This document shows positions 40,539 to 50,960 of a stretch of 55,071 bases of DNA, in pieces. The translations under genes were made by a program, and so were the position numbers. Positions within the stretch are counted from its first letter, which is position 1, and each line of letters begins with the position of its first letter. The stretch is from an uncultured Spiribacter sp. (GTDB lineage: Bacteria; Pseudomonadota; Gammaproteobacteria; Nitrococcales; Nitrococcaceae). Location of the stretch: assembly GCA_913056145.1 (NCBI GenBank), contig CAJXMI010000003.1, forward strand, positions 1 to 55,071, in the 5' to 3' direction. The notes beneath the pieces are model-generated. The model saw only the letters and a list, made by a program, of their open reading frames with translations, did not search any database and was not told the origin of the DNA.

Positions 40539-43500
40539 CTAGCGGTGATAATCGAGCTGCACCGACTGCTCGGGCAGCAGTGTCGTGAGCCGCTCGATCA
40601 GGGCCGCCTCGGGGCGTACACGCCAGGCCTCGCCCAAGCGGACGCGCGCGCTCGCCCCCGCACCCTCGTAGTCGATACAAACCGTGCAGTCCCCGTTTTG
40701 GTAGGGCTCGAGGGCCTTATGGAGATGGCCGATAAAGCCATTACCCGCCTTTGCCGCATCAACGCGCAACACCAGGCGTCGGGCAAATGCCATGCGCGCA
40801 CCGGCCAGATCGTGCACACGCTCGGCCGAGACCCGATAGCCGTCGCTGAACTCGTCATAACCGAGATCCCCCTCGACCACGATCAGGCGGTCTTTTTCGA
40901 GCAGGTGGCGATAGCGCTGGTAGACATCGCCAAAGAGGATGACCTCGAGCCGTGCCGTGCGGTCATCGAGGGTGACAAAGCCAAGTCGCCGCCCGCTTTG
41001 TGTAATCCGACTGCGCACGGCCACGACAAGGCCGGCGAGGACCACGCGCTTTTCCCGCTCGCGCCGACTGCCCTTGCCACCCGCCTCGACACCTGCCCCG
41101 CTGGCAGCCTGCACCAGGCGGGCGGTTGTGAACCCCGCCAGCTCGTCTTCGTACTCGCTGATGGGGTGACCGGTGAGATAGAGGCCCAGGGTTTCCTTTT
41201 CGGCCGCCAGGCGCTCGGCCTCGTCCCATTCCGCCATGCCGGGCGCGGTCTCGGCGCCGGCATCGGGCGCGGCCACCGTGCCCAGGCCAAAGAGGTCGTC
41301 CTGGCCCAGCTCGGTGTTGCGTGTCTGCTGCTCGGCGGCCTGCAGGGCGGGGCTTAGCATATGCATGGCCGTTGCCCGGTTGCTGCAGATCGAGTCGAGG
41401 CTCCCCGAGCGGATGAGCGCCTCGAGCACGCGGCGGTTTACCCGGCGCAAATCGACGCGTCGACACAAATCATGCAAATCGGCAAACGCCCCGCCGGCGT
41501 TGCGCGCATCAACAATGGCCTCCACGGCTGAATACCCCACGCCCTTGACGGCGCCCAGGCCATAGACAATTCGCCCCTCGCTTGCCGCCTGAAACATCCA
41601 CTCCGAGCTATTGATATCCGGTGGATCAACCGCGAGAGCCATTGCCCGACATTCCTCAATGAGAATGACAACCTTGTCCGTGTTATCCATATCGGAGGAC
41701 AGCACCGCGGCCATGAACGCGGCGGGGTAATGGGTCTTGAGCCAGGCGGTCTGGTACGACAGCAGCGCATAGGCGGCCGAGTGCGACTTGTTAAAGCCGT
41801 ACCCCGCGAACTTCTCCATGAGGTCGAACAGGCCCTCGGCATGCTCGCGGCGCAGTCCCTGGCCAACCGCACCCTCCAGGAAGATGCTGCGCTGGCGCGC
41901 CATTTCCTCGGGCTTTTTCTTGCCCATTGCACGGCGAAGCAGATCGGCCGCGCCCAGGCTGTAGCCCCCCACCGCCTGTGCGATCTGCATCACCTGCTCC
42001 TGGTAGAGGATGACGCCATAGGTAGGCTGGAGAATGGGCTTGAGCGCATCGTGATGCAGCTCGGGGGTGGGATAGGCCACCGGTTTGCGGCCGTGTTTGC
42101 GGTCGATGAAATCCTCGACCATGCCCGATTGCAGCGGACCGGGCCGGAACAGCGCGACGAGTGCGACGATGTCCTCGAATGAATCGGGCTGCAGGCGGCG
42201 GATCAAATCCTTCATGCCGCGGGATTCAAGCTGAAACACTGCCGTGGTCTGACAGGCCTGCAGCTGGCGGAAGGTCTCGCGATCGGCGAGCGGGATGGTC
42301 GCGATGTCGAGCGGTGTCTCGCCGGCCGCCGTGCGCAGCGTATTCACCGCCCGGACCGTCCAGTCGATGATCGTGAGGGTGCGCAGCCCCAGAAAATCGA
42401 ATTTGACGAGCCCCACGGCCTCGACGTCGTCCTTGTCGAACTGGGTTGCAAGCCCCGCCCCGCCCGGCTCGCAGAACAGCGGTGCAAAGTCGGTGAGATC
42501 GGAGGGCGCGATGACCACACCGCCGGCATGTTTGCCGACGTTGCGCGACAGCCCCTCGAGCCGTCCGGCAAGGTCCAGCAGGAAGTGCACATCCTCATCC
42601 TGCTCGTAGAGCTCGCGCAGATCGGCCTCCTGCGCGAGTGCCTTGTCGAGCGTCATGCCAAGCTCAAACGGGATAAGCTTGGCAATGCGGTCGACATAGC
42701 CGTAGCCATGCCCGAGCACGCGGCCAACGTCGCGAACCACGGCCCGGGCCGCCATCGTGCCGTGAGTGGCAATCTGCGAGACCTTTTCACGGCCATAGCG
42801 CTCGGCCACATAGTCGATCACGCGGTCGCGCTTTTCCATGCAGAAGTCGACATCGAAGTCGGGCATGGACACCCGCTCGGGGTTGAGAAAGCGCTCGAAG
42901 AGCAGATCGTAACGCAGCGGATCCAGGTCGGTAATCTCAAGCGCGTAGGCCACCAGTGAGCCCGCCCCGGAGCCGCGCCCCGGCCCCACGGGGATGTCCT
43001 GCGATTTTGCCCAGCGAATGAAATCGGCAACGATCAGGAAGTATCCGGGAAAGCCCATCTGCTCGATAACGCCCAGCTCGTGGTCCAGGCGCGCGTCATA
43101 GTCGGCCGGGTCGCCACCGGGAGTGCCCAGCGCGGCAATGCGGCGCTCCAGCCCTGCCTTGGCTTCGGAGCGAAGATGCGCCTCGATGCTGCGTCCCTCG
43201 GGCACCGGAAAATCCGGCAGCACATTCTGGCCGAGGGTCAGGCTGAGGTTGCAGCGCTGCGCAATGGCAACAGTGTTCTCAAGCGCCTCCGGCAGGTCGC
43301 TGAACAGCGCGGCCATTTCCTCCGGGCTGCGCAGATACTGCGCCTCGGCATAGTGCCGCGGGCGCTGGTCATCGTGGAGGATGCGACCGTCATGAATGCA
43401 CACCCGCGCCTCATGCGCCTCGAAATCGTCGCGCTCCAGAAAGCGGACATCGTTGCTGGCCACCACCGGCGTCTGGGTAGCGCCGGCCAGCGCAACCGCC

Positions 43501-44048
43501 GCGTGGACATGGTCCTCGTCACCGGGCCGCCCGGTGCGCTGGACTTCAAGGTAGTACCGCCCGGGAAAATGCGTATGCCAAAATGCCAGACGCTGCCGGG
43601 CCAGGCGTTCGTCCTGATTGAGCAAGGCCTGGCCAACGTCACCCCGAGCGCCTCCGGAGAGAACGATGAGCCCCTCGTTCCAGCGCTCGAGCCAGGCGCG
43701 CTCCACCAAAGGCAGGCCCTGGCCCTGGCCGTCGAGGTAGCTGGCGGTGATCAGTCGTGTCAGCGCGGCGTATCCGGCGTTGTTCATGCACAGAAATGTC
43801 AGCGCGTGGTGGCCGCCGCCCCCCTCCTCGCTGGCCACCCGCAGGTCGGCGCCAATAATGGGCTTGACCCCGGCTCGAAGGGCGGCTTCGTAGAATTTGA
43901 CCATCCCGAACAGATTGCCCTGATCGGTGATGGCCACCGCTGGCATCCCGTACCCGGCCACGCCCTCGACCAACGGGGCCACCCGGACGGTGCCGTCGAT
44001 GAGCGAGAATTCGGTGTGCAGATGAAGATGAACGAATGCCGGTGCCAT
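40539..44048 (-). CDS. dnaE: DNA polymerase III alpha subunit
   Basis: Replicative polymerase of the C family, 1169 residues (E. coli 1160). Domains: PHP (HLHTEFSLIDG near residue 9, up to about 280), polymerase palm with the catalytic aspartates in PDFDVDF (Asp399, Asp401), GRGSGAGSLVAYAL just before it, fingers with GYGFNKSHSAAYALLSYQTAWLK, then helix-hairpin-helix and an OB domain (VVLAGLVVAVRSRITQSGRR, residues about 990-1080). The beta-clamp and tau-binding tail lies at the C-terminus. In most relatives rnhB lies directly upstream; here a divergent lpxA-gnnA-gnnB cassette separates them. Confidence 0.97.
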   Translation of the reverse strand: MAPAFVHLHLHTEFSLIDGTVRVAPLVEGVAGYGMPAVAITDQGNLFGMVKFYEAALRAGVKPIIGADLRVASEEGGGGHHALTFLCMNNAGYAALTRLITASYLDGQGQGLPLVERAWLERWNEGLIVLSGGARGDVGQALLNQDERLARQRLAFWHTHFPGRYYLEVQRTGRPGDEDHVHAAVALAGATQTPVVASNDVRFLERDDFEAHEARVCIHDGRILHDDQRPRHYAEAQYLRSPEEMAALFSDLPEALENTVAIAQRCNLSLTLGQNVLPDFPVPEGRSIEAHLRSEAKAGLERRIAALGTPGGDPADYDARLDHELGVIEQMGFPGYFLIVADFIRWAKSQDIPVGPGRGSGAGSLVAYALEITDLDPLRYDLLFERFLNPERVSMPDFDVDFCMEKRDRVIDYVAERYGREKVSQIATHGTMAARAVVRDVGRVLGHGYGYVDRIAKLIPFELGMTLDKALAQEADLRELYEQDEDVHFLLDLAGRLEGLSRNVGKHAGGVVIAPSDLTDFAPLFCEPGGAGLATQFDKDDVEAVGLVKFDFLGLRTLTIIDWTVRAVNTLRTAAGETPLDIATIPLADRETFRQLQACQTTAVFQLESRGMKDLIRRLQPDSFEDIVALVALFRPGPLQSGMVEDFIDRKHGRKPVAYPTPELHHDALKPILQPTYGVILYQEQVMQIAQAVGGYSLGAADLLRRAMGKKKPEEMARQRSIFLEGAVGQGLRREHAEGLFDLMEKFAGYGFNKSHSAAYALLSYQTAWLKTHYPAAFMAAVLSSDMDNTDKVVILIEECRAMALAVDPPDINSSEWMFQAASEGRIVYGLGAVKGVGYSAVEAIVDARNAGGAFADLHDLCRRVDLRRVNRRVLEALIRSGSLDSICSNRATAMHMLSPALQAAEQQTRNTELGQDDLFGLGTVAAPDAGAETAPGMAEWDEAERLAAEKETLGLYLTGHPISEYEDELAGFTTARLVQAASGAGVEAGGKGSRREREKRVVLAGLVVAVRSRITQSGRRLGFVTLDDRTARLEVILFGDVYQRYRHLLEKDRLIVVEGDLGYDEFSDGYRVSAERVHDLAGARMAFARRLVLRVDAAKAGNGFIGHLHKALEPYQNGDCTVCIDYEGAGASARVRLGEAWRVRPEAALIERLTTLLPEQSVQLDYHR

Positions 44049-44152: not shown

Positions 44153-44938
44153 ATGACCAACGCCAGTATTCACGCCAGCGCCATTGTTGATCCGGACGCG
44201 CAGCTCGGGGAGCGCGTGCGCATCGGACCCCATGCCGTGATTGGCGCGGGAGTGCGCATTGGCGACGATTGCGAGGTGGGTGCCAGCGTGGTTCTGAGTG
44301 GCCCGCTAACACTTGGAGCCCGCAATCGCCTGCATGCCCATGCCGTCCTTGGCGAGCCTCCGCAGGATGTCAGCTACCGCGATGAGCCAACGCAACTGGT
44401 CGTTGGCGATGACAACACCTTTCGCGAATTTGTGACCGTGCATCGAGCCAGCACCAAAGAGGCCGGCGTGACCGCCATCGGGGATCGCAACCTGCTGATG
44501 GTCGCAAGCCATGTGGGCCATGACTGTCAGCTCGGCAATGACATCATTATTGCCAACAGCAGCCAGCTCGGGGGGCATGTGCATATTGATGACCGGGCGT
44601 ATATATCCGCCGCCTGCGCCATCCATCAGTTCGTGCACATCGGGGCACTCGCCATGCTGGGCGGCGGCGCCATCATATCCCGCGATGTCGCGCCCTACTG
44701 CATGGCGGCCGGTAACCGTGCCAGGCTGCGGGGGCTCAATGTACGCGGTCTCAAGCGCGCGGGCATCTCACCCGCAAGTCAGCGCGCCCTGAAGGCGGCC
44801 TATCGCGCCTTCTTTCGCGCGGGCCACGGCACCGAGACGGCCATTGCGGCCATCGAGGCCGGCGAACTACACCACCATCCCGAGGTTGCCCGGTTTGTGG
44901 CATTCGTTCGGGCGAGCGAACGGGGAATACTGCGATGA
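44153..44938 (+). CDS. lpxA: Second UDP-GlcNAc/GlcNAc3N acyltransferase (LpxA paralogue)
   Basis: A 261-residue left-handed beta-helix acyltransferase, full length for LpxA, which transfers a 3-hydroxyacyl group from ACP to a UDP-GlcNAc-type acceptor as the first step of lipid A synthesis. It keeps the catalytic His (SHVGHDC, His123, equal to E. coli His125), GEPPQDVSY, AIHQFVHIG and the C-terminal helical domain ending RGILR. The chain-length ruler position has Gly171 (E. coli Gly173). Changes near the acceptor site include NVRGLKR where E. coli has NIEGLKR, and HRAST for HRGTV. It overlaps gnnA by 4 bp, so it probably acylates the 3-amino sugar made by the next two genes; this is inference. 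Confidence 0.9.
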   Translation: MTNASIHASAIVDPDAQLGERVRIGPHAVIGAGVRIGDDCEVGASVVLSGPLTLGARNRLHAHAVLGEPPQDVSYRDEPTQLVVGDDNTFREFVTVHRASTKEAGVTAIGDRNLLMVASHVGHDCQLGNDIIIANSSQLGGHVHIDDRAYISAACAIHQFVHIGALAMLGGGAIISRDVAPYCMAAGNRARLRGLNVRGLKRAGISPASQRALKAAYRAFFRAGHGTETAIAAIEAGELHHHPEVARFVAFVRASERGILR

Positions 44939-45882
44939 ACCGGCTGCGAACGGCCGTCGTGGGTGCCGGCTATCTGGGCCGCTTCCATGCCCTTAAATAC
45001 GCGGCGCACCCCGAGTGCGAGCTGGTCGCTGTGGTGGATGCCGATGCGCAGCGCGCGCAGGCCGTGGCCGATGAGTGCGGCTGCAAGGCCTTCACCGATG
45101 CAGCGGAGCTGCCCGGCGCGGTGGATGCGGCCAGCATGGCCACGCCCACCCGGTTGCATCATGCCCTGGCGCTGCCATTGCTTGAGGCGGGCATTCACAT
45201 GCTCATCGAAAAGCCCATGACCACCACGCTGGCCGAAGCGGATGCGCTGATTGCCGCGGCCCGCGCCCGTGAGTGCGTGCTGCAGGTGGGGCATCTGGAG
45301 CGCTTCAACCCGGCCATGGTGGCGGCCGCCAGCGAGATCCGCCAGCCGCGCTTTATCGAATCGCACCGCATTGCCCCGTTCAATCCGCGCGGTGCCGATG
45401 TCAGTGTCGTCCTCGATCTCATGATCCATGACATTGATCTGATCCTGGAGCTGGTGGATTCACCGCTCGAGCGCCTCGATGCAAGCGGCGCCCGGGTTAT
45501 CTCGGAGGACATCGACATTGCCAACGCGCGCCTCGGGTTTGCCGACGGCTGCGTGGCCAACGTGACCGCGAGTCGGGTCAGCCCCAAGGCCGAGCGCCGA
45601 CTGCGGTTGTTTCAGGAAAATGCCTATTTTGCGCTGGATCTGCAGGCCGGCACACTCGATGTCCAGCGCCGGCGACCCGATGCCGCCGGGCCGCCCACCA
45701 TGGATCAGATCACGCGTGAGCAGCGATCCCCCGGGCGCAGCGATGCCCTGGCCGACGAAATCAATGCGTTCGTGCGTGCCATTCACGAGGGCTCACGCCC
45801 CGTGGTCAGCGGTGACGACGGTCGCCGCGCGCTTGCCGCTGCGATCGAAATCGGACGCCAACTCAACAGGAACCCCGCATGA
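44935..45882 (+). CDS. gnnA: Gfo/Idh/MocA oxidoreductase, GnnA-like
   Basis: A 315-residue NAD-dependent sugar oxidoreductase: Rossmann motif VVGAGYLGRFHALKY, ATPTRLHHALALPLLEAGIHMLIEKPM (the family EKP motif), QVGHLERFNP and the active-site VLDLMIHDIDLIL. Known GnnA oxidises the 3-OH of UDP-GlcNAc to a ketone. The assignment rests on its place between an lpxA copy and an aminotransferase, with 4-bp overlaps on both sides. It could alternatively serve an O-antigen sugar (WbpB-like), but the lpxA linkage argues for lipid A. Confidence 0.82.
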   Translation: MNRLRTAVVGAGYLGRFHALKYAAHPECELVAVVDADAQRAQAVADECGCKAFTDAAELPGAVDAASMATPTRLHHALALPLLEAGIHMLIEKPMTTTLAEADALIAAARARECVLQVGHLERFNPAMVAAASEIRQPRFIESHRIAPFNPRGADVSVVLDLMIHDIDLILELVDSPLERLDASGARVISEDIDIANARLGFADGCVANVTASRVSPKAERRLRLFQENAYFALDLQAGTLDVQRRRPDAAGPPTMDQITREQRSPGRSDALADEINAFVRAIHEGSRPVVSGDDGRRALAAAIEIGRQLNRNPA

Positions 45883-46997
45883 GCCACCCCATCCCCATGG
45901 TCGACCTGACCGCGCAGTACCCACTGCTGCGCGACGACATCGAGGCAGGCCTCAAACAGGCACTCGACGAGGCCCGCTTCATTCTGGGACCCAATGTCCA
46001 GGCCCTCGAGCAGGAGGTGGCGGATTACCTGGGCGTGGCCCATACCGTTGCGGTGGCCTCGGGCACCGACGCCCTCCACCTGGCACTACGGGCCGCCGGG
46101 GTGGGCGAAGGCGACGAGGTGATCACGACCCCGTTCAGCTTTATCGCAACGGCCGAGGCCATTTGCTACGTGGGTGCGCAGCCGGTCTTTGTCGATATCG
46201 ACCCGGCCACGTTCAACATCGACCCCCAGGCCGTGGCCGGCGCCATCACCCCGCGAACCCGGGCCATCCTTCCGGTGCACCTCTTTGGCCAGCCCGCCAA
46301 TCTGCCCGCCCTTGGCCAACTGGCCGAGCAGCATGGTCTGGCGCTTGTTGAAGATTGTGCGCAGTCCTTCGGCGCCAGCATCGATGGCCGGCAGACCGGT
46401 AGCATCGGCGTGACCGGGGCGTTCAGCTTCTTTCCCAGCAAAAATCTGGGCGGCTATGGCGATGGCGGGCTTGTGAGCACCGATGACCCCGCGGTGGCCG
46501 ACAGGGCCCGCGCACTGCGCAACCACGGCAGTCGCAGGCGCTACTACCATGACGAGGTGGGCTACAACAGTCGCCTCGATGAGCTGCAGGCGGTCATCCT
46601 GCGCGCCAAGCTGCCGCATATCGACGCCTTCAACGATGGCCGCCGGCGTGTCGCCGCGCGCTATGCCGAACGGCTGGGACAGTCCGAGCGGGTCGCCATC
46701 CCGCATGCGGATGGCATTGGCCGGCATGTCTACCACCAGTACACCCTGCTTTGCGCCGATGAGGCCGAGCGCGATCAGCTGATGGCAGCACTTGGCGAGG
46801 AGCGGATTGCCTCGGCCGTCTACTACCCGGTGCCACTCCATCATCAACGTGCGTTTGCCGAGCACTACGGCGATGCCGGACCGCCGAGCCTGCCTGTTGC
46901 CGAGGCAACAGCGCGCCGCTGTCTGTCACTGCCGATCTACCCCGAACTGGCGCTGACCGATGTGGATCGGATCTGCGAGGTCATTCTGCGGCGATGA
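45879..46997 (+). CDS. gnnB: DegT/DnrJ/EryC1 sugar aminotransferase, GnnB-like
   Basis: A 372-residue PLP aminotransferase with [57 protein letters not shown], the PLP Lys in [14 protein letters not shown] and [12 protein letters not shown]. Known GnnB transaminates the 3-keto sugar with glutamate to give UDP-GlcNAc3N. WbpE-type enzymes of O-antigen synthesis are close relatives, so the name depends on context. Last gene of the cassette; its 3' end overlaps rnhB on the other strand by 17 bp. Confidence 0.83.
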
Positions 46998-47547
46998 GAT
47001 CGCGTACCGGCGCGAACGAGCGTCGGTGAACCGGACAGATACCGCACTCGCGCAGGCGCGCGCGATGCTCGGCCGTGGGATAGCCGCTGTGACGGTCAAA
47101 GCCATAGGCCGGATAGAGGGTGTGCAACCGGCGCATATGCGCATCCCGGTAAACTTTGGCAATAATGGAGGCTGCCGCAATGGCAGGAACCTGGTTGTCC
47201 CCGCCGACGATCGCCTCGCCGGGACAGGGGAGCGCCGGGAGATCGCGCCCATCCACCAGTACGCGCTGCGGCGCGACCTTCAGGCCGGCGACGGCACGCT
47301 GCATGGCAAGGAGCGTGGCCTGGCGGATATTGAGCGCGTCGATCTCGGCCGCATCGACCTCGGCAATCGCCCAGGCCCGCGCATTGGCCTGAATGTGCTG
47401 AGCGAGCACCTCCCGCCGCCGCGTGCCAAGGCGCTTTGAGTCGCGAACACCCGACCAGTCCGGCCCCGGCTGCAGAATAACGGCAGCAGCCACCACCGGA
47501 CCGGCGATCGGCCCGCGGCCCACCTCATCCACACCGGCCTCAGTCAT
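46981..47547 (-). CDS. rnhB: Ribonuclease HII
   Basis: Removes RNA from RNA-DNA hybrids and initiates ribonucleotide excision. The 188-residue protein begins [21 protein letters not shown] with the catalytic Asp-Glu pair, followed by [49 protein letters not shown] and [12 protein letters not shown]. The ATG at 47547 overlaps the lpxB stop by 8 bp; a longer frame to 47715 is inside lpxB. Confidence 0.95.
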
Positions 47548-48673
47548 GCTCGAGAAGCTCGGCAACGGCAGCTGCGGCCTGCTCACTGGCGCCACGCCGC
47601 AGCCCCTTGTGCAGCGAGTGAAAGCGCCCGGCAATGCGCTCGCGCTCGCCGGGTTTATCAAGCAGCCCCGCCAGCGCAGGCGCAATGACGTCGGCTCTGG
47701 CCTGCTCCTGGACAAACTCGGGCATCAGCATCTCGCCGGCCATCAGGTTGGGCATGGCAAAAAAGGGTATGCGGATCGAGCGCCGTGCCACCGCCGCCGT
47801 GAGCGCATTGACCCGATAGGCCATTAATGCCGGACAGCCCAGCAGCATGGCCTCGAGTGTAGCCGTTCCCGACGCCACCAGCCCGGCATCGGCGGCTGCA
47901 AGCACCTGGCGGGCGCGCCCCTCGGTGACGGTGACCGGGAGCGCCGGTGACCGCGCCAGCTCGGCACTGACAATCGCCTCAATGGCAGGGGTAGCGGCCG
48001 GCACCACAAAGCGGGCGCCGGGCCGCTCGGCAGCCAACCGCGCGGCAACCTCGAGGAAGACCGGCAGCAGGCGTTGCACCTCGCCCGGCCGGCTGCCCGG
48101 CAGCAGTGCGACAAGGGTTTGGTCTGGCCCGATATCGAGCTCGGCACGCGCCGCCGCGTGCTCCACCGACAGCGGGATTTCGTCAGCCAGCGGATGCCCG
48201 ACAAAAACGGAGTCCATGCCGCGGGCGGCATAGAAATCATGCTCGAAGGGATAGATGCACAACACCCGATCGATGGCATTGCGAATCCCGCGCAACCGCC
48301 CCTCGCGCCAGGCCCAGACCGTGGGGCTCACATACTGCACGGTCGGCACCCCGCCGGCGCGCAACCGGCGTGCGAGCCCCAGATTGAAGTCGGGTGCATC
48401 CACTCCGATAAAGACATCCGGCGGGTTCGCCAGCCAATACCGCCGCAGCTCTGCCCGAATCCGCAGCAGCCGCGGCAAGTGCCGGAGCACCTCCACCAGC
48501 CCCATTACCGAGAGCGCCGCCATGGGGTGACGCGAGACAAGGCCAGCCGCCTCCATATGCGGGCCACCAATGCCCTCGAACCGCGCCTGCGGATAGCGCG
48601 CCGCCAGTGCGCGCACCAACCCGCCGCCCAGATAATCCCCCGATGGCTCGCCTGCAACGAGGCCGATCCGCAT
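47540..48673 (-). CDS. lpxB: Lipid-A-disaccharide synthase
   Basis: Joins lipid X and UDP-diacylglucosamine to form the lipid A disaccharide. The 377-residue GT-B glycosyltransferase has the N-terminal [69 protein letters not shown] and [20 protein letters not shown] 48673 is at the start of homology. It lies 10 bp after lpxA in the standard order. Confidence 0.95.
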
Positions 48674-48683
48674 TGCCGACGGC

Positions 48684-49460
48684 CTAGCGGACAATGCCGC
48701 GCGACGAGTCACGAACAAACCGGATCAGATCGGCAATGGCCGCATCATGGTCCGCATCGGCCTCAAGCACGTCCAATGCCTCGTTGAGCCGCAGGCCCTG
48801 GCGATACAGCGTGCGATAGGCGGCGCGCAGCCGCTGCTGTCCCGCGCTGTCAAACCCGGCCCGTCGCAGCCCCTCGCTGTTCGTTCCATGCGGGCGGGCC
48901 GGATCACCGGCCACCATCACCCAGGGCGGGACATCGCGGCGAATGCAGCTGCCCATCGAGGCAAAGGCCCCGCGCCCGAGGCGGCAGAACTGATGGACAA
49001 GGGTAAAGCCCCCCAGCGTGGCGCCGTCCCCCACCTCGACATGACCGGCCAGAGACGCGCCGTTGGCAAACACCGCGCCATCGTGGACCACACAGTCATG
49101 GGCGATATGCACATAGGCCATGATCCAGTTGTCGTTGCCGATCCGCGTGACGCCGCCGCCATCGCGGGTGCCGCGATTGATGGTGACAAACTCGCGAATG
49201 GTGTTGTTGGCGCCGATCTCAAGCCGGCTGTCCTCGCCGTCAAACTTTTTATCCTGAGGGACCTCGCCGACCGACGCGAACTGAAACACCCGGGTGCCCG
49301 CGCCGATCCGGGTGGGGCCACGGATGACGGAATGCGGCCCGATCACGCAACCACTGCCAATCTCGACCCCGGCATCGATGACGGCGTAGGGGCCCACCTC
49401 GACATCGGCTGCCAACGACGCACCCGGGTCAACCGAGGCCGTGGGATCAATACCGCTCAC
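48684..49460 (-). CDS. lpxA: UDP-N-acetylglucosamine O-acyltransferase (ordinary-locus LpxA)
   Basis: A 258-residue hexapeptide-repeat acyltransferase in its conserved place between fabZ and lpxB. It has FQFASVGEVPQD, VTINRGTRDGGG, the catalytic His in VHIAHDC (His121, equal to E. coli His125), LVHQFCRLG and the C-terminal SEGLRRAGF. The chain-length ruler position is Met169, as in the C10-selective Pseudomonas aeruginosa LpxA, predicting 3-hydroxydecanoate as the primary chain. Overlaps fabZ by 4 bp. A second, divergent copy lies at 44153-44938. Confidence 0.95.
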   Translation of the reverse strand: MSGIDPTASVDPGASLAADVEVGPYAVIDAGVEIGSGCVIGPHSVIRGPTRIGAGTRVFQFASVGEVPQDKKFDGEDSRLEIGANNTIREFVTINRGTRDGGGVTRIGNDNWIMAYVHIAHDCVVHDGAVFANGASLAGHVEVGDGATLGGFTLVHQFCRLGRGAFASMGSCIRRDVPPWVMVAGDPARPHGTNSEGLRRAGFDSAGQQRLRAAYRTLYRQGLRLNEALDVLEADADHDAAIADLIRFVRDSSRGIVR

Positions 49461-49924
49461 GCTTCCCTCATCGTGCAGCGGATGCCGGCGCTCGCAGCGG
49501 TGGCCCCGTCCACCTCTACCCGCGCCTGGAAAAGCCAGATCCCGCGCACCACGCGGTCGAGCGTTGCCGCCAGCTCTGCGGTCTCGCCGGGCTCAATGGG
49601 CCGCTTGAAGCGGGCGTTGTCCACCCCCACCAGGAAGAACAGGGGCGCCTCGGGCGGCATCTCGGCATCGGGCTCGGCCTCGCGGGTCACAAAGGCCAGC
49701 AGACCACAGGCCTGCGCCATGGCCTCGACGAGCAGCACACCGGGCATGATCGCCCGTTCGGGGAAATGCCCGCTCACCCAGGGCTCGTTGGCTGTGACCT
49801 GCTTGATGGCCCGCAGCGACTCGCCGGGCTGATAGTCAATGACCCGATCGACGAGCAGGAAGGGATAACGATGGGGTAGCCGGCGCTTGATACCGTCCGG
49901 GTCAAGGGTCTTCGGGTTGCTCAT
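49457..49924 (-). CDS. fabZ: 3-hydroxyacyl-[acyl-carrier-protein] dehydratase FabZ
   Basis: Hot-dog fold dehydratase of fatty acid elongation, competing with LpxA and LpxD for 3-hydroxyacyl-ACP. The 155-residue protein has RLPHRYPFLLVDRVID with the catalytic His, SGHFPERAIMPGVLLVEAMAQACG with the catalytic Glu, and FFLVGVDNARFKRPIEPGE. It starts 23 bp inside lpxD and overlaps lpxA by 4 bp. Confidence 0.95.
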   Translation of the reverse strand: MSNPKTLDPDGIKRRLPHRYPFLLVDRVIDYQPGESLRAIKQVTANEPWVSGHFPERAIMPGVLLVEAMAQACGLLAFVTREAEPDAEMPPEAPLFFLVGVDNARFKRPIEPGETAELAATLDRVVRGIWLFQARVEVDGATAASAGIRCTMREA

Positions 49925-50960
49925 TCAGTGTCCTCTCAAGCGCCTTTTCGAGCTGTTCGATGCGCCTTGCCATGGTGTCGAGTTGTCGGAAGCGCACGGC
50001 GTTGCGCCGCCAGTCGCGCGCCGGCATGGCGGGAATGCCCGAGGAATACACCCCGGCCTCACGGACACTGCCTGTCACCATGGCCATGCCGGTAAAGGTT
50101 GTTCCCGCCGCAATTTCAAGATGCCCGGCCATGCCTACCTGACCCGCGATGGTACAGCAGCGCCCGATTCGCGTGCTGCCCGAGATTCCCGTGCACGCGG
50201 CAATGACCGTGTGCTCGCCAACCCGGACGTTATGGGCAATCTGCACGAGGTTGTCGATCTTGCAGCCATTCTCTACCACGGTATCGCCCTGCGATCCGCG
50301 ATCGATCGTGGTGTTGGCCCCAATGTCGACATCATCGCCAATGACCACCGTGCCGAGCTGCGGGACGGGCTCCCAGCCCTCGCCGTCGTGGGCAAAACCA
50401 AAGCCCTCGCCGCCAATCACGGCGCCGGGGTTGATATGCACACGCTCACCAATGCGGCAGCGCGCCGCGATGGTGACGTTGCCATCAATGCGGCAGTCAT
50501 TGCCGATGACCGCCTCGTCCTCCACCACCGCGCCAGGGCCAATCCGAGTGCCCGCGCCAACAACGGCTCCTGCACCAACGAATGCGCCGGGCGCAATCTC
50601 CGCCGCCGGGTCCACCGCCGCGTCGGCCGCCACCCAGGCCCCATCGGCAACACCGGGGCTTACCGGGGGCAACGGGTTGAGGAGCCTCGCGACGCGGGCA
50701 AAGGTCAGGTAGGGGTTGTCGCTGCGCAGGCTTGCCCCCGTGAGCGCCTGATCGTCGAGATCCACCGGCACGATAACCGCGGACGCCTGTGTATCGGCCA
50801 GCTCGCGCCGATAGCGCGAGTTGGCAAGGAAACTGATCTGCCCCGGCCGGGCCTGTGACAACGCCGCCACCTGATCAATGCGGATGTCGGGATCGCCCTC
50901 GAGTCGGCTGTTGGTGAGCTCGGCGAGCTCACCGAGCGTGTAGGACTGTCTGGCCACCAC
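49902..50960 (-). CDS. lpxD: UDP-3-O-(3-hydroxyacyl)glucosamine N-acyltransferase
   Basis: Adds the second 3-hydroxyacyl chain in lipid A synthesis. The 352-residue protein has an N-terminal uridine-binding domain (residues 1-100), a left-handed beta-helix of hexapeptide repeats (about 105-315) with the catalytic His in VQIAHNVRVGEHTVIAA, the MVTGSVREAGVYSSGIPAMPARDWRRN segment, and a C-terminal coiled helix. It starts at GTG 50960, 11 bp after skp. Confidence 0.95.
   Translation of the reverse strand: MVARQSYTLGELAELTNSRLEGDPDIRIDQVAALSQARPGQISFLANSRYRRELADTQASAVIVPVDLDDQALTGASLRSDNPYLTFARVARLLNPLPPVSPGVADGAWVAADAAVDPAAEIAPGAFVGAGAVVGAGTRIGPGAVVEDEAVIGNDCRIDGNVTIAARCRIGERVHINPGAVIGGEGFGFAHDGEGWEPVPQLGTVVIGDDVDIGANTTIDRGSQGDTVVENGCKIDNLVQIAHNVRVGEHTVIAACTGISGSTRIGRCCTIAGQVGMAGHLEIAAGTTFTGMAMVTGSVREAGVYSSGIPAMPARDWRRNAVRFRQLDTMARRIEQLEKALERTLNEQPEDP

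Follow-up and report, generated by a model that had tools for sequence, protein, structure and literature searches.

Two LpxA copies of an uncultured Spiribacter differ at an acyl-chain ruler residue and probably in their sugar acceptor

The window analysed here is a whole stretch of 55,071 nucleotides from an uncultured Spiribacter sp. It carries the usual operon on the minus strand, in the order bamA, skp/ompH, lpxD, fabZ, lpxA, lpxB and rnhB. The operon copy of lpxA, lpxA1 (48684–49460), begins with a GTG codon, encodes a 258 aa protein and is recognised by TIGR01852 (325.0 bits) and by the order lpxD–fabZ–lpxA–lpxB–rnhB. Its companions on the same strand are lpxD (49902–50960; TIGR01853), fabZ (49457–49924; NF000582, 158.3 bits with a cut-off of 113), lpxB (47540–48718; TIGR00215) and rnhB (46981–47715, an ORF as listed whose true start is unsure and whose place is conserved). 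A three-gene cassette on the plus strand, transcribed opposite to the lpx operon, lies between rnhB and dnaE (40539–44048, minus strand; PF07733 and other families). It comprises lpxA2 (44153–44938; 261 aa; TIGR01852, 307.6 bits), a gnnA-like gene for an NAD-dependent oxidoreductase (44935–45882; PF01408, 1.2e-31) and a gnnB-like gene for a DegT/DnrJ aminotransferase (45879–46997; PF01041, 1.3e-124); the ends of neighbouring genes overlap by four bases at both junctions. The two LpxA proteins are 41% identical. The original prediction compared two LpxA copies under the interval 48684–49460, which holds the operon copy alone; the cassette copy is the plus-strand gene just described.

Both lpxA genes are intact, and both products exceed the cut-off of the LpxA equivalog model TIGR01852 (231.05 bits) as well as that of the LpxA model NF003657 (226 bits; 335.3 for the cassette copy and 348.2 for the operon copy). 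The lpxA2 product is full length and includes the C-terminal PF13720 domain. The cassette sets a Gfo/Idh dehydrogenase and a DegT aminotransferase next to lpx genes, as expected of GnnA and GnnB; the two names are putative, resting on family and gene context. The NCBIfam model nearest to the gnnA-like gene is NF040723 (an archaeal UDP-GlcNAc 3-dehydrogenase), which gives 184.2 bits with a cut-off of 450. Pairs of a Gfo/Idh dehydrogenase and a DegT aminotransferase also occur in diacetamido-sugar pathways. The cassette might, then, supply O-antigen or some other glycan with a diacetamido sugar in the manner of WlbA/B/E, its LpxA-like protein acting outside lipid A synthesis, and this protein has a weak match to 8e62, an acetyltransferase of a diacetamido pathway. 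That match reaches 69.6 bits, as against 233.3 for the best LpxA match. The full-length product with PF13720, its scores above both LpxA cut-offs and the position of the cassette beside the lpx operon in all nine genomes of the genus that possess it also count against this reading, which is highly improbable.

Swap experiments by Wyckoff et al. in 1998 reportedly identified Gly173 of E. coli LpxA as an acyl-chain ruler. Pseudomonas aeruginosa has a single LpxA. In that enzyme, Met169 limits the chain to C10 (PMC6820557; PMC7072397), and the ruler places named are P. aeruginosa Met169 (C10), Leptospira Lys171 (C12) and E. coli His191 (C14) (PMC7072397), which alignments locate at E. coli columns 173, 176 and 191. 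The window copies were aligned with E. coli K-12 LpxA (NC_000913) by MAFFT, each protein keeping its own numbering. The catalytic His125 of E. coli corresponds to His123 in the cassette copy and His121 in the operon copy, so the catalytic histidine is kept in both, as originally predicted; His144 and His160 are likewise present in both, as are His122 and Gln161, read off HMMER alignments. The difference at the E. coli Gly173 column is confirmed, with the residues and numbers given before: Met169 in the operon copy (ATG codon, 48954–48956, minus strand), the column of P. aeruginosa Met169, and Gly171 in the cassette copy (GGC codon, 44663–44665, plus strand). The assignment of the ruler positions rests on ungapped sequence alignment, as the HMMER alignments of the window copies to 1lxa and 5dem are gap-free through the ruler stretch.

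At E. coli positions 173, 176 and 191 the operon copy has Met, Cys and Pro. Its Met169 and Pro187 match P. aeruginosa LpxA, which has Pro at the 191 place and is its best match in the PDB (5dem, 261.8 bits; 4eqy gives 261.1 bits). The likeness to the C10-specific P. aeruginosa enzyme is thus borne out; the operon copy looks C10-type, the case for a short chain on this side is strong, and transfer of 3-OH-C10 is predicted. The cassette copy has Gly171, Ile174 and Arg189 at the same positions and agrees with the C14 set of E. coli (Gly173, Gly176, His191) only at 173. In the PDB it is matched best by LpxA of Burkholderia thailandensis (4eqy, 233.3 bits), and Leptospira LpxA (3hsq) ranks 13th with 188.7 bits. 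Because Ile174 and Arg189 depart from E. coli, C12 and C14 are indistinguishable for this copy; what can safely be predicted is a chain longer than C10. Of the claim that the copies add chains of different length, the short operon side stands, the long side is partly supported and the assignment of C14 to the cassette copy is not established.

The same residues could mean that the copies differ in sugar acceptor and little in chain length, with Ile174 and Arg189 keeping the LpxA2 chain within about C10 to C12 and Gly171 simply inherited from the subfamily. The cassette copies of the lineage have I, M or V at E. coli position 176 and R at 191 (H in L033), unlike Gly176 and His191 of E. coli, and C12 is reported to be set by Lys171, the Leptospira residue at the 176 place (PMC7072397). 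This reading is nevertheless unlikely in view of residue conservation and donor supply, both described below. Structure models, built on shallow alignments, bear nothing on groove geometry, since the operon model (mean pLDDT 68.8) falls below 50 at residues 168–194, that is, at the ruler, and the cassette model (mean pLDDT 80.3), the one used in the fold search, finds LpxA or LpxD chains at ranks 1–24 (Z 16.9–19.2) with an rmsd as high as 12 to 14 Å.

Leptospira LpxA prefers UDP-GlcNAc3N. The title of the 3hsq entry refers to sugar nucleotide and acyl chain selectivity, and in the alignment this L. interrogans protein has Gly at 76, Val (Val195) at 200, Ala at 205 and Gly at 173; the cassette copy of the window differs from it in having Ser74, Arg198 and Ile174, the last in place of the Leptospira C12 ruler Lys171. 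In P. aeruginosa LpxA, Lys72 (E. coli 76) bonds the 6-OH of GlcNAc and Glu196 (E. coli 200) is close to uracil (PMC7072397). For the Lys72 place in Leptospira LpxA, the text of that paper gives Phe72 and its Table 1 gives Gly71; our alignment has Gly71. A signature drawn up in this analysis, and not a published definition, is the replacement of both Lys76 and Glu200. Both are replaced in the cassette copy of the window and in all 11 cassette copies of the lineage. The reported difference SEGLRR versus VRGLKR is correct in the alignment, and the segment forms part of the uridine pocket (PMC7072397). Together with the GnnA/GnnB-like neighbours, the loss of Lys76 and Glu200 upholds the proposal that the copies act on different sugars; different sugar acceptors are, as a prediction, well supported.

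Within the genus, 14 genomes were sampled (G000, the window's own, and G009–G021). The cassette is present in nine of them and absent from five; column 173 is Met in 14/14 operon copies and Gly in 9/9 cassette copies. The Met/Gly pair also occurs in G008, of another genus of the same family, and in L033, a MAG labelled Ectothiorhodospiraceae. At E 1e-20, eight other family members (G001–G007, G022) show a single LpxA, with Phe at column 173. At the corresponding loci (L013, L014, L018–L022, L024) this sole LpxA has Phe, His and Arg at 173, 176 and 191. When the operon copies (16) and cassette copies (11) of the lineage are compared, only five of 262 columns (99, 153, 173, 194 and 223) are invariant in each set yet different between the sets. 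Gly171 is invariant in the 11 cassette copies despite a mean pairwise identity of 60%, which argues against its being merely inherited.

A tree of joined core proteins, in which the rows of G019 (16%) and G016 (33%) are thinly filled, requires two changes of cassette state. As L033 and G008 lie outside the genus, both changes are read as losses, of which G014 accounts for one and the ancestor shared by G009, G012, G020 and G021 for the other. In the five genus genomes lacking the cassette (L123–L127), the rnhB and dnaE matches are 65 to 81 bases apart, consistent with clean losses. A gene set lost twice in one genus would be dispensable, and LpxA2 could thus be an alternative enzyme that serves under particular conditions of salt or temperature, instead of contributing to a hybrid lipid A at all times. 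The orientation of the cassette, opposed to that of the operon, is compatible with such use, and the two LpxA of Psychrobacter have been linked to temperature, as speculation (PMC4557000). This account, which we regard as rather doubtful, departs from the explanation favoured below in the use of LpxA2, not in its enzymology.

A wider survey covered 184 genomes of one class, presumably Gammaproteobacteria, namely the window's own and others at least 90% complete. GnnA (E 1e-40) is found in 69/184 and at least two LpxA (E 1e-20) in 28/184; two or more LpxA occur in 26 of the 69 genomes with GnnA versus 2 of the 115 without it, and in one of these two (G171) the second match is weak and partial. 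LpxA proteins were extracted, among the matches listed, from 148 of the 184 genomes; the other 36 lacked a match, ranked below those listed, yielded no protein from the stretch taken or were not retrieved (at least G049). The two-copy set consists of 25 GnnA genomes besides the window's own, with 26 second copies (two in G182) and 26 fabZ-adjacent, operon copies (two in G195); it should be read bearing in mind that the surveyed genomes include close kin (G074 and G195 share a genus, as do G062 and G189). At column 173 the second copies have Gly (19), Ala (6) or His (1), giving a small residue in 25/26, and the operon copies have Met (17), Phe (4), Leu (3), Arg (1) or Ile (1), giving a small residue in 0/26. 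The His, in the second copy of G063, goes against the pattern. In these 25 genomes the residues of second and operon copies at 173 do not overlap, which also speaks against a difference in acceptor alone, and by mutual information column 173 ranks first among 262, tied with 67 and 65.

The acceptor signature is distributed similarly in the two-copy genomes: Lys76 and Glu200 are both lost in 24 of the 25 readable second copies, a count that leaves out one G182 fragment with a gap at 76, versus 1 of 26 operon copies. One or other of the two residues is missing in 7/26 operon copies, which goes against the pattern. Among single copies, both are lost in 12/32 with GnnA (G000 excluded) and 0/89 without GnnA (G171 included), and, again contrary to the pattern, both are kept in 8/32 of the former. 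Lys76 by itself is lost in 13/32 versus 0/89, with at least eight changes on the single-copy tree; an independent-pairs test of GnnA against Lys76/Glu200 in the 121 single-copy LpxA found just three pairs on supported branches and had no power. A small residue at 173 is present in 4/32 single copies with GnnA and in 16/121 overall. Since it does not track GnnA there, the split at the ruler is a property of LpxA2 as a subfamily and not of GnnA as such.

This subfamily was delineated in an LpxA tree of 98 rows, built by a quick method with the root not inferred, which included eight of the lineage's 11 cassette copies, 25 of the 26 second copies, 24 of the 26 operon copies and samples of single copies. 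One group (SH-aLRT 98) unites 24 of the 25 second copies with the eight cassette copies and L087; the other (SH-aLRT 99) contains 59 rows of operon-type copies, including E. coli. Contrary to the pattern, the second copy of G186 falls outside LpxA2 and keeps Lys76 and Glu200. In that genome (L215:1495-3310) a second LpxD-like gene comes after the second LpxA (Lys76, Glu200, Ala173). For one LpxA2, from G129, L. interrogans LpxA (3hsq) is the top match in the PDB. Judging by these groupings, LpxA2 is an old subfamily in its own right and did not arise by recent duplication of the lpxA gene nearby. As its members are of one old origin, the 25 genomes do not count as so many independent tests. 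What is new in this analysis is the old LpxA2 subfamily, with its ruler and sugar signatures occurring together; searches of open-licence literature turned up no gammaproteobacterial LpxA2 subfamily in which ruler and acceptor signatures are linked.

The lipid A of Spiribacter salinus M19-40T, a strain that appears to belong to the window's genus and to correspond to G014, contains 10:0(3-OH) at positions 3 and 3′, with 14:0(3-OH) at 2 and 14:0(3-oxo) at 2′, and yields two C14 amides after ammonia treatment (PMC5923411). G014 has one LpxA, with Met at 173, and no cassette. The 3-OH-C10 at 3 and 3′ fits a Met-ruler LpxA without the cassette, and further supports the C10-type assignment of the operon copy. 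The C14 amides at 2 and 2′ imply that C14 donors exist in such a cell (PMC5923411), a point against LpxA2 being confined to short chains. LpxD and LpxB give a single match in each of 15 genomes; the window's own genome, where one copy of each was found, is 87.7% complete, and a second lpxD or lpxB could be absent from its assembly. Of the 15 genomes, 12 have two late acyltransferases (PF03279), G013 and G016 have one each and G019 has none; G016 and G019 are drafts less than 90% complete. With one LpxD and one LpxB, both LpxA products should share the later enzymes, which would give a mixed or hybrid lipid A.

The explanation we consider probable is that the two LpxA represent two old subfamilies, one (LpxA1) using a short chain and UDP-GlcNAc and the other (LpxA2) a longer chain and UDP-GlcNAc3N. 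LpxA1, whose acyl groove Met169 would close, would acylate UDP-GlcNAc at its 3-OH with a short (R)-3-hydroxyacyl chain, C10 being the likeliest length. UDP-GlcNAc would be converted to UDP-GlcNAc3N by GnnA and GnnB, and LpxA2, whose Gly171 would leave the groove open beyond C10, would add a longer chain (C12 to C14) to the 3-amine of this sugar as an amide. Passing through the shared LpxD and LpxB, both products may enter a GlcN/GlcN3N lipid A, mixed or hybrid, with short esters and longer amides at 3 and 3′.

Capnocytophaga belongs to a phylum other than that of the window's bacterium. As reported in 2012, two LpxA with GnnAB and unlike chains are already known there (PMC3342949): Capnocytophaga canimorsus resembles the window in having lpxA and lpxA′ together with gnnA and gnnB and a hybrid GlcN3N–GlcN backbone, and the authors tied the unlike 3 and 3′ acylation to the two lpxA genes. 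Unlike in the window, lpxA and lpxA′ cluster there with lpxC and lpxD (PMC3342949). Segatella copri likewise has two LpxA, about 45% identical and proposed to add different chains; it differs in that acylation is proposed at the 3-OH of glucosamine, and gnnA is not mentioned there (PMC12643348). For Psychrobacter, too, chain diversity has been proposed to stem from two LpxA (PMC4557000). A broader generalisation, possible and put forward tentatively, is that in Gammaproteobacteria the LpxA2 subfamily joins long chains to the 3-amino sugar and the operon LpxA short chains to the 3-hydroxy sugar; in many unstudied bacteria the long chains at position 3 would then all be amides and GnnA activity would set the average length. 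If true, linkage (amide or ester) and chain length at 3 and 3′ would be set jointly by the LpxA that acts, and both could be read off a few residues. The genus itself is a natural testing ground, since some of its closely related members have the cassette and others lack it, one of them probably with a published lipid A.

Other arrangements of these genes were seen in the survey. At L042, L057, L062, L063 and L067, a gnnA–gnnB–lpxB set lies between rnhB and lpxA, its LpxB being 33 to 41% like that of the window. In G178 and G048 (L217, L226), lpxA1–gnnA–lpxA2–lpxB form one run inside the operon. Simiduia aestuariiviva (L051:16285-17830) has two tandem operon-type LpxA with Met at 173 in both and different residues at 191 and 200.
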